Positions 35,495 through 38,116 of a stretch of DNA of 38,759 bases are shown piece by piece. The notes beneath the pieces are model-generated. The model was not told the origin of the DNA. It searched no databases and saw nothing but the letters and a program-made list of their open reading frames with translations. A program made the position numbers and the translations under genes. Position 1 is the stretch's first letter. Each line of letters starts with the position of its first letter. This DNA is from Shewanella decolorationis S12 (GTDB lineage: Bacteria; Pseudomonadota; Gammaproteobacteria; Enterobacterales; Shewanellaceae). The stretch spans positions 1-38,759 of the forward strand of contig NZ_AXZL01000002.1 of assembly GCF_000485795.1 (NCBI RefSeq), read 5' to 3'.

Positions 35495-36391
35495 TTAAAG
35501 CACGATATAAAGCGGCCAGCCGAGTAGACCGACGAGTCCTTCTTTATGCTCGAATCTTTCTAAACGCTCAGGGGAGGCGTCGCTAAGCAGCAGTTCGCGA
35601 TAACTTTTCGCGAAATGCAGCGTACGCAGCAATGCTGGTGCAAAGTTTTTACCCAAATCTTTAGCGATAGTCTCGGCCAGCTCCGCGGGAAGCTCCGCCA
35701 AGGCTTGTTGGGTTTGCTGCTCGATATACTCGAGGCTAAACCATTCGTCCTGCAAGCTGATTTTGGCAATGCGTTTTTTCAGATCTTGTCTGACTTTGGC
35801 ATTATCAAACAACATCCGGTACAGCACCGCTTCGGCCAATACGCTCTCCAGATTTAAGAAATCCAAAGGATCGTAGCTGGTTTGGGCATAAAACTGTGCC
35901 ATTAGCGCCGCAATCGATTGCTGACGTTGGTGCTCGGCCAATGCGTCCTGGTAGGCCTCATAGCCCAGCCACTCTTCGGCGTCAGGTGGCGTAGAGACTT
36001 GTTCCAGCAGGAATTTATCCACGTCACCATAGAGCGACTTACCATTCACCAGCTTATGTTTGCTGACGACGCTGAGCATGCTCCAACCCTTTTGGAAGCA
36101 TTTGACCACGCCATCGGCGGTGAGCAATAAACGCACTGCTTGCTGTTGATCCTGATCAGACAGTTCCATTAATCCGAGACTGACGACGCCAATCACATCG
36201 TGCGCCGCCTGTTCCAGTAAGTGCATCTTGTACTTGTTGTAGAACTTATCCGCCAATTTGAGGCTCATCAAAATGGCTTTAGATTTGATTTGTGCGAGCT
36301 GCTCACCGCTAAGGGTGTCATCTGCTTGGCCTTTAGCCAACACCTTGCTCAGGTATGGGCCTTGGTCTAAATCACGCAGTACCAGTTGCAT
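35495..36391 (-). CDS. Uncharacterised helical protein, J-domain cluster
   Basis: A 298-residue soluble protein that I do not recognise. It is predicted to be almost wholly helical, rich in Leu, Gln and Ala, with no signal peptide or membrane segment. Features: IKSKAILMSLKLADKFYNKYK near the N-terminus, an acidic middle (DAEEWLGYEAYQDAL), and a hydrophobic C-terminus LVGLLGWPLYIVL. It follows the 252-residue acidic protein by 10 bp with AAGGAT as ribosome site and is the last gene of the cluster headed by the J-domain protein. Possibly a partner or substrate of the chaperone system. Confidence 0.72.
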   Translation of the reverse strand: MQLVLRDLDQGPYLSKVLAKGQADDTLSGEQLAQIKSKAILMSLKLADKFYNKYKMHLLEQAAHDVIGVVSLGLMELSDQDQQQAVRLLLTADGVVKCFQKGWSMLSVVSKHKLVNGKSLYGDVDKFLLEQVSTPPDAEEWLGYEAYQDALAEHQRQQSIAALMAQFYAQTSYDPLDFLNLESVLAEAVLYRMLFDNAKVRQDLKKRIAKISLQDEWFSLEYIEQQTQQALAELPAELAETIAKDLGKNFAPALLRTLHFAKSYRELLLSDASPERLERFEHKEGLVGLLGWPLYIVL

Positions 36392-36401
36392 CTAGGGATC
36401 C

Positions 36402-37160
36402 TTAATCTAAAAAGCTAAACATATCATCCACTTCTGCGTATTCGTCCGTGACTTGGTTTTTCTCTTTTGCTTGGATAACCAGTTCATTGACGAACTTGTT
36501 AATGATCATTTCCCAGCCAGAGCTTTCGTTACGCAGCAGGTTTTTAATGGCTTTTTCTACATCGGGCGCCAGCTCATGGATTAACGCCATCAGACTACGC
36601 GGGTCATCGAGGCTTAAGCTATGGGCTTCTTCACTGGCGACACGGCTGTCATAGCCGACGGTGTCGGTATCTTCTTCATCATCATAATAATCGTTGAAGT
36701 GGTCTTCATCGTCGTGGCGCTCGCCCAGCATCATCTCGATAAAGGGGATAGACAGATAGAAGAGGCCAGCGGGATCTTCGGCAATACACTCTAAAATGGC
36801 AGTTTGTTTTTCTTCGCTGTCTTGGATGCGAATTAAATAAGTCAAAAAATCAAAGGTATGCTGAATGAGTTCTTCTGCATTATTCTTGATTTTTTCTTCC
36901 CAATACAAAGGTTGCTGACAGACGATGTCGCGAATTTGCTCTGGTGTCATCAGCTCCGACATAATTGACGGGCAGGATATATCGTGGTGACTGTTGATTT
37001 GCGTCAGGGTCACAATATCCATTTTTTCAATAACTTCGACTAATTGCTCATCGTTCATTGTGGTGGCGATGAGTTCGAAACGTTTACTGGCCTGTTTTGG
37101 CTCGACATCGGCGAGCTCTTTAATCTCGGCAACGGTTATTTCAATGAGACTAGTGTTCAT
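36402..37160 (-). CDS. Uncharacterised acidic protein, J-domain cluster
   Basis: A 252-residue acidic cytoplasmic protein with no recognised domain. Helical segments flank an acidic linker at about 148-167 (HDDEDHFNDYYDDEEDTD). The C-terminus ends in a short hydrophobic motif, VDDMFSFLD. Cys residues at about 63 and 80 and others are scattered, without a clear metal site. The start overlaps the stop of the upstream gene by one base (TAATG), so the two are translationally coupled and probably made in similar amounts. Confidence 0.72.
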   Translation of the reverse strand: MNTSLIEITVAEIKELADVEPKQASKRFELIATTMNDEQLVEVIEKMDIVTLTQINSHHDISCPSIMSELMTPEQIRDIVCQQPLYWEEKIKNNAEELIQHTFDFLTYLIRIQDSEEKQTAILECIAEDPAGLFYLSIPFIEMMLGERHDDEDHFNDYYDDEEDTDTVGYDSRVASEEAHSLSLDDPRSLMALIHELAPDVEKAIKNLLRNESSGWEMIINKFVNELVIQAKEKNQVTDEYAEVDDMFSFLD

Positions 37161-37693
37161 TAGCGGTCCTCATCATCGTACTGATCGTAATAGCCATCTT
37201 CCTCTTCGCCGTCATCATCGTCGTCATCGGAATAATCGGCGTAATCACTGTCTTCGTCTTCAAAATCATCGTCAGCGCTACGTTTAGGGGCTGGCGTACT
37301 TTTGCCTTGGTTTTCCAGTAAATAGAGTACGGCGCAGCTTTCAATCAGCAAATCTTCTGAATAGGCGCGCACCGCTAGCACTAATGGCAAATCGGCATTG
37401 TTAAAGCCAATAGTGACCTTGAACTCATCCCATTCGGGTTGTGTTGCAGTATTGATCCAATGGGCCCATTTGAGTTTGGCATCACTTGGAAATTTGACTC
37501 GGCCATAGAGTGCTACAGGCAGGTACTCGGGCACCGACTCGAGCATTTTAGGATCAGCCTGTAATACTTTTTTGATTTGACAGGTAAATTGTTCCAGTGC
37601 CTTGGGGGTATCCGGGTCATCATAGGACTCGATATTGTCGTAGGCATTGGTCTTAAGCTCATTAATGCGTGAGATATTCAGTTTTTTGGCCAT
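37160..37693 (-). CDS. Uncharacterised protein with long acidic tail, J-domain cluster
   Basis: A 177-residue cytoplasmic protein. Residues about 1-135 form a globular domain that I do not recognise, with WAHWINTATQPEWDEFKVTI and LPLVLAVRAYSEDLL. The last 40 residues are almost entirely Asp, Glu, Tyr and Ser (from SADDDFEDEDSD onward), an intrinsically disordered acidic tail of the kind that can chaperone basic proteins or mimic nucleic acid. GAGA serves as ribosome site. It begins 139 bp after the J-domain gene, so it may have an additional promoter. Codon use is like the neighbours. Confidence 0.75.
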   Translation of the reverse strand: MAKKLNISRINELKTNAYDNIESYDDPDTPKALEQFTCQIKKVLQADPKMLESVPEYLPVALYGRVKFPSDAKLKWAHWINTATQPEWDEFKVTIGFNNADLPLVLAVRAYSEDLLIESCAVLYLLENQGKSTPAPKRSADDDFEDEDSDYADYSDDDDDDGEEEDGYYDQYDDEDR

Positions 37694-37805
37694 GGGCTTG
37701 TCTCAAAATAAAAGCTATCAAACAAACAGCTTCTTAAATAAATCGTGTTGCAATAAAAGGTCCAAATTAAGGGGCTTGGCAAACTAAGCTCATTAATTTG
37801 GCACT

Positions 37806-37820
37806 CCCAGTGTTGCACTG
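37806..37820. repeat. Hairpin between J-domain gene and acidic-tail gene
   Basis: CCAGTG-TTG-CACTGG forms a 6-bp stem just after the J-domain gene. On the minus strand the T-run precedes rather than follows the hairpin, so it is not a standard terminator for that gene; it may be an operator or an mRNA processing signal. Confidence 0.4.
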
Positions 37821-37831
37821 GAAAAAACCGC

Positions 37832-38116
37832 TTAAGGGTAAAACTGATCCCATAATTCGCGCATGGCGCCATTGGGATCGGTCACGATCACATTATTGAA
37901 GTCTCGGATAAACGCATTTCTAAGCTTGGGATCTGAGAGCACTTCATAAGCTTTTTTAACGCGCTCAAGTTGTTGTGATGCTTGCTCTTTTTCTTCATCA
38001 GAGGCACCTAACAACTTATCGGGATGGTATTTGTTTGAGAGCCGGCGATAGGCTTTTTTAATGTCGTCTTCTTTGGCGCTAGGTTTGATACCGAGCACAC
38101 TAAAGTGGTTAATCAT
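37832..38116 (-). CDS. Minimal J-domain protein (DnaJ-like)
   Basis: A 94-residue protein that is little more than a J domain: FSVLGIKPSAKEDDIKKAYRRLSNKYHPDKL with the HPD tripeptide (31-33) needed to stimulate Hsp70 ATPase, then helix IV VKKAYEVLSDPKLRNAF. About 25 residues follow (IVTDPNGAMRELWDQFYP). It lacks the Gly/Phe region, zinc fingers and substrate-binding domain of DnaJ, so substrate choice must come from a partner. The downstream acidic proteins are obvious candidates. It is the first gene of this leftward cluster. Confidence 0.9.
   Translation of the reverse strand: MINHFSVLGIKPSAKEDDIKKAYRRLSNKYHPDKLLGASDEEKEQASQQLERVKKAYEVLSDPKLRNAFIRDFNNVIVTDPNGAMRELWDQFYP

Follow-up and report, generated by a model that had tools for sequence, protein, structure and literature searches.

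A four-gene locus of Shewanella decolorationis S12 is probably the known atcJABC cold-adaptation operon and has a divergent Colwellia-type counterpart

The Atc system has been characterized in Shewanella oneidensis, and the literature searched contains one primary paper on it (PMC6715715, Maillot et al. 2019) and two meeting reports (PMC7871303 and PMC10939069); in each of PMC10495460 and PMC8548654, AtcJ appears a single time, where the findings from S. oneidensis are cited or repeated. In S. oneidensis, AtcJABC are SO_1850, SO_1849, SO_1848, and SO_1846 (PMC6715715). AtcJ stimulates the ATPase of DnaK, for which the histidine of its HPD motif is required, and its 21-residue tail binds AtcC, with a Kd of 7 nM for full-length AtcJ and of 80 nM when the tail is supplied as a peptide; AtcC in turn makes direct contact with AtcB (PMC6715715). 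Mutants that lack atcJ, atcB, or atcC grow very poorly at 7 °C, whereas loss of atcA has no such effect; the atcJ phenotype is described for 5 to 10 °C, and at 15, 28, and 35 °C this mutant shows no difference of relevance (PMC6715715). The same source gives the expression of the operon as about equal from 7 to 37 °C, leaves a further role possible, and reports conserved synteny across 80 genomes of Shewanella, Moritella, and Aeromonas. AtcB has been stated to contact RNA polymerase in one sentence of a meeting report (PMC7871303), and a workshop report of 2023, which cites Weber et al. 2023, describes the mechanism as still to be elucidated (PMC10939069). The HscB/IscU/HscA iron-sulfur system resembles atc in that a class C J protein is encoded next to its own dedicated partner (PMC6715715), but unlike HscB with HscA, AtcJ works with the general DnaK.

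The window analyzed here, by which we mean the whole stretch of 38,759 nucleotides from S. decolorationis S12, carries four open reading frames of 94, 177, 252, and 298 codons on the minus strand, in the order J-A-B-C with atcJ most upstream:

37832-38116, minus strand: atcJ, 94 aa, class C J-domain protein (Pfam DnaJ, 70.5 bits; NCBIfam NF050028, 184.4 bits)
37160-37693, minus strand: atcA, 177 aa, pI 4.1 (NCBIfam NF047888, 288.6 bits)
36402-37160, minus strand: atcB, 252 aa, pI 4.2 (NCBIfam NF047889, 510.5 bits)
35495-36391, minus strand: atcC, 298 aa, predicted to be all-helical (NCBIfam NF047890, 518.6 bits)
37158-37162, minus strand: TAATG, stop/start overlap of atcA and atcB, read in the sequence

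All four proteins scored above the curated equivalog cut-offs of NCBIfam for cold adaptation proteins (150 bits for AtcJ, 200 for AtcA, 440 for AtcB, and 370 for AtcC). We therefore suggest, with a probability of roughly 0.88, that the four genes are the known atcJABC cold-adaptation operon and that their products likely form a DnaK-AtcJ-AtcC-AtcB chain. The system is real but already known, having been described in 2019. This identification is supported by the same four families, gene order, and motifs seen in the window; compared by way of the family models and of closely related Shewanella, the locus shows no difference of note from that of S. oneidensis, with which it shares the HPD motif, the 21-residue AtcJ tail, and the protein sizes (a 94-aa J protein and partners of 20, 29, and 34 kDa). 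AtcB of the window shares 100% of its residues with AtcB of Shewanella xiamenensis and 99% with AtcB of Shewanella sp. ANA-3. By homology, the interactions and the cold phenotype would carry over to the strain of the window. An earlier reading made from the sequence only had assigned the three partners to no recognized family, a view which does not hold, as NCBIfam names AtcA, AtcB, and AtcC, and relatives of AtcB carry the precomputed Pfam domains PF27486 and PF27450. In the Pfam copy that we used, the J-domain was the only domain named among the four proteins. NCBIfam lists the AtcJ model under the spelling ActJ.

The translational coupling that the sequence-only reading had seen in TAATG is found between the second and third genes, and atcA and atcB overlap in 52 of 65 relative loci as well. 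The spacer between atcJ and atcA (37694-37831) is 138 bp long, compared with a median of 23 bp among the same 65 loci, which might suggest that an orphan J-domain gene lies by chance beside three unrelated genes. However, the spacer of S. oneidensis is also long (120 bp), and RT-PCR pointed to a single operon there in spite of it (PMC6715715). Moreover, the 65 loci, which were obtained by scanning the named GTDB representatives for AtcB and come from Shewanella, Parashewanella, Rheinheimera, Arsukibacterium, Alishewanella, and metagenome-assembled genomes named only as Gammaproteobacteria, all keep the order J-A-B-C on one strand. In an order-level sample of 177 genomes, each at least 90% complete, which was searched with the NCBIfam profiles at cut-off, AtcA, AtcB, and AtcC passed in the same 24 genomes and AtcJ in 23 of these and in no other, and the four genes lie side by side in the genomes that pass. 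The one discordant genome (G371) is explained by a contig end, since its AtcA starts at base 49 of the contig and atcJ would lie beyond it. A chance cluster is refuted by this co-conservation to the point where we give it practically no weight. AtcA is co-conserved as tightly as the other members. The sequence-only reading had named a lack of co-conservation between the J-domain gene and the other three as its refutation, and this refutation fails, because J goes with A, B, and C in 23 of 24 genomes and in 65 of 65 loci. The latter set was chosen by AtcB and thus tests the company of AtcB and not its absence, and the scan reaches close relatives only: Aeromonas was not returned by it, and the AtcB of Aeromonas was found by a protein search.

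Several hairpins are predicted in the 138-bp spacer (fold z of −2.46, with 2 of 200 shuffles as good). Of five aligned relatives, only L006 has nearly the same spacer; in the remaining four it is different or far shorter, and it was therefore dropped as a feature. A promoter scan of 35400-38500 gave one site against 4.5 expected by chance, which is no evidence for a promoter.

The J protein has the following elements, of which the tail takes its function from the S. oneidensis protein:

38018-38026, minus strand: HPD motif (residues 31-33), the tripeptide that stimulates DnaK, found in all 65 of 65 relatives
37835-37897, minus strand: 21-residue C-terminal extension (residues 74-94), aligned here, the AtcC-binding tail in S. 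oneidensis (PMC6715715)
37850-37876, minus strand: P-x7-W motif of the tail (P81 to W89), present in 65 of 65 AtcJ proteins of the Shewanella/Rheinheimera type

The Pfam DnaJ match spans residues 3-68, and the protein consists only of a J-domain with HPD and a tail of about 21 residues, which places it with AtcJ. Weber et al. 2023 reportedly describe the P-x7-W motif in the AtcJ tail. The sequence-only reading was right that a minimal J protein without a substrate-binding region leads the cluster, although it left the extension unmentioned. A canonical class A DnaJ was rejected (62.6 bits for TIGR02349 against a cut-off of 377.2); the G/F, zinc, and C-terminal domains of DnaJ are absent because the protein stops at residue 94. 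HscB was rejected as well, with scores of 35.4, 33.2, 32, and 28.8 bits against cut-offs of 198, 189, 46.75, and 169 bits, respectively.

The acidic tail noted in the sequence-only reading belongs to AtcA:

37163-37282, minus strand: acidic tail of AtcA, the last 40 of 177 residues, with 24 D/E and 2 K/R

The tail is present in 64 of the 65 relatives. The exception is Shewanella morhuae (L014), whose atcA reading frame (3474-4001) is broken by a stop at codon 24, whereas tblastn matches J, B, and C at full length; this early stop fits a dispensable AtcA, but it may also be a sequencing error. A search of PDB sequences with AtcA gave no match at E ≤ 1. Part of the sequence-only reading leaned on this tail. 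In S. oneidensis, an atcA deletion has no cold phenotype, and no contact of AtcA with J, B, or C was seen by two-hybrid assay (PMC6715715), so the tail provides no evidence for client choice.

Within the genus, the operon is patchy. Of the 12 genomes of the genus in the order-level sample, six have A, B, and C and the other six lack all of them, so the genes are present or absent together, and a search with the AtcB alignment found AtcB in 24 of 77 genomes of the genus; many Shewanella thus seem to do without the operon. This patchiness would suit a general stress or phage-defense chaperone device in place of a cold-growth system in the strain of the window, as would the near-constant expression from 7 to 37 °C (PMC6715715) and an acidic AtcA without a known role. 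We consider this very unlikely, because the phenotype described for the S. oneidensis atcJ mutant lies in the cold, as given above. Heat was among the conditions under which the sequence-only reading had proposed to look for phenotypes, and in that account growth of the atcJ mutant at 35 °C showed no difference (PMC6715715). On a wider scale, the AtcB alignment found 5 of 348 genomes in a phylum sample, all of the same order, and the AtcC family was found in 1 of 276 genomes in a class sample, namely the genome of the window itself. Homologues are said by Weber et al. 2023 to occur in beta-proteobacteria too. None was found there in the phylum (348) or class (276) sample, which is weak evidence given the sample sizes.

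For AtcB, AlphaFold2 predicts a helical solenoid (pLDDT 74), in which residues 147-178 and the C-terminus fall below 50, and for AtcC an almost entirely helical protein (pLDDT 83). Nothing convincing was found among PDB sequences (best E of 0.34 for AtcB and 0.058 for AtcC). By homology, AtcC would be the binding partner of both the AtcJ tail and AtcB. Two elements of AtcB stand out when the loci are compared with those of a divergent Colwellia type, which is described below:

36627-36722, minus strand: acidic low-confidence loop of AtcB (residues 147-178), pLDDT below 50, shortened in the Colwellia type (alignment gap)
36408-36428, minus strand: C-terminal D[DE]MFxxL of AtcB (residues 245-251), in 65 of 65 loci of the Shewanella/Rheinheimera type and 30 of 30 of the Colwellia type

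In all of the 65 loci, AtcB ends with this heptapeptide plus one residue. Among the AtcB protein matches listed, the motif is present in 119 of 120 in the first search and 119 of 120 in the second, the two proteins without it having an M-to-I change and an unrelated end, respectively. Between the two types, four of its seven columns are invariant (21 sequences) and five of seven are identical. However, the heptapeptide ties with other stretches of the solenoid core as the most conserved between types, and we therefore regard it as a pointer to a docking motif and not as proof of one.

Taken with the work on S. oneidensis, the locus suggests the following mechanism. The J-domain of AtcJ would stimulate DnaK through HPD, the AtcJ tail would hold AtcC, and AtcC would hold AtcB, as shown for the S. 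oneidensis orthologues; AtcB would contact RNA polymerase, as stated in the meeting report. The chain could thereby bring DnaK to RNA polymerase as the cell cools, allowing growth in the cold. That RNA polymerase is the target of DnaK action seems to us about an even bet. It is also possible that AtcB or AtcC is itself the client and that AtcJ delivers AtcC or AtcC-AtcB to DnaK for folding or remodeling, as in HscB-IscU-HscA. This option is listed in the published model, and AtcC alone melts at 31 °C but at about 44 °C with AtcJ or the tail peptide, although, in the view of the authors, an affinity of 7 nM fits poorly with a transient contact between co-chaperone and substrate (PMC6715715). 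The reported contact of AtcB with RNA polymerase also points outward (PMC7871303), and we consider it unlikely, though a real contender, that the client lies within the system. For the preferred reading, a chain that recruits DnaK, the core of the sequence-only reading, a dedicated Hsp70 recruitment machine, fits the data given for the S. oneidensis orthologues (PMC6715715), apart from what it built on the acidic tail. Its suggestion of a nucleic-acid-binding client was reasonable in view of the reported contact between AtcB and RNA polymerase (PMC7871303). Raw sequence thus sufficed to recognize an operon dedicated to Hsp70 recruitment.

Two further genomes of the order-level sample gave weak matches, one with all four genes adjacent (G348) and one with A, B, and C, in which J is cut by the contig end (G391). 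None of the NCBIfam cut-offs for AtcA, AtcB, AtcC, or AtcJ was exceeded in these two genomes, the two of the Colwellia type tested. They belong to a divergent Colwellia-type atc operon, represented by the G348 locus (L082) and 30 further loci (L089-L118), for which the source names seen were "hypothetical" or "uncharacterized." In G348, the J, A, B, and C proteins have 86, 153, 217, and 306 aa, respectively, in the same order as in the window, with identities to the window proteins of 30% for AtcB and 25% for AtcC. A protein search with this AtcB returned 387 proteins, and wherever a genus is named among the best 120 listed, it is Colwellia, Thalassotalea, or Cognaticolwellia. The divergent AtcC was searched against a 295-genome sample of the family that holds G323 and matched in 64 genomes, 32 at E < 1e-99 and 32 with weak E-values between 1.7e-8 and 8.5e-4; the latter are probably for the most part of the Shewanella/Rheinheimera type, given that G323 is among them. 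All 30 of the best loci of this search carry A, B, and C in the same order. J accompanies them in 26, and the remaining four have at most about 110 bases of retrieved flank next to atcA.

The Colwellia type shares with the window the gene order, the P-x7-W of AtcJ, the acidic AtcA tail, and the DDMFxxL of AtcB. P-x7-W is found in all 26 tails readable among the 30 loci fetched, and since only 5 of 21 tail positions match between G348 and the window, the AtcJ tail has diverged around this motif. The Colwellia-type AtcB is 35 residues shorter than that of the window, mostly because the acidic loop is reduced. Neither this operon type nor the terminal motif of AtcB was found in the literature searched, but Weber et al. 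2023 may cover both. The alignment of the two clades provides short testable elements for the target choice of AtcB, namely, the heptapeptide at its end and the acidic loop, without which the Colwellia type manages. One could speculate on a two-plug adaptor, in which the P-x7-W tail of AtcJ plugs into AtcC and the D[DE]MFxxL of AtcB plugs the chain with DnaK into RNA polymerase, with a compact, loop-less version in cold-loving Colwellia; we regard this picture as doubtful and give it little weight. In some genomes of the Colwellia type atcC is damaged: a single TAG interrupts the match in G636 (L118) and in G725 (L116), and in G705 the gene is split into two pieces, the second of which contains stops. 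The operon may be decaying in one genus (g290).

In the surroundings of the operon, an inverted repeat with GC-rich ends was seen by eye at 35463-35486, between atcC and a convergent gene for a DUF6678 protein (35007-35435; Pfam, 127.9 bits), and was absent from the terminator scan. Upstream of atcJ, 38344-38759 contains two 96-bp direct repeats with 98% identity and a further 100-bp pair with 75% identity. By eye, each unit holds part of a tRNA, and only the last is called (tRNA-Met, 38677-38753, minus strand), so that the repeats look like tandem decayed copies of tRNA-Met. A gene for bacterial small SRP RNA is located at 526-623 (Rfam RF00169, 68.8 bits).
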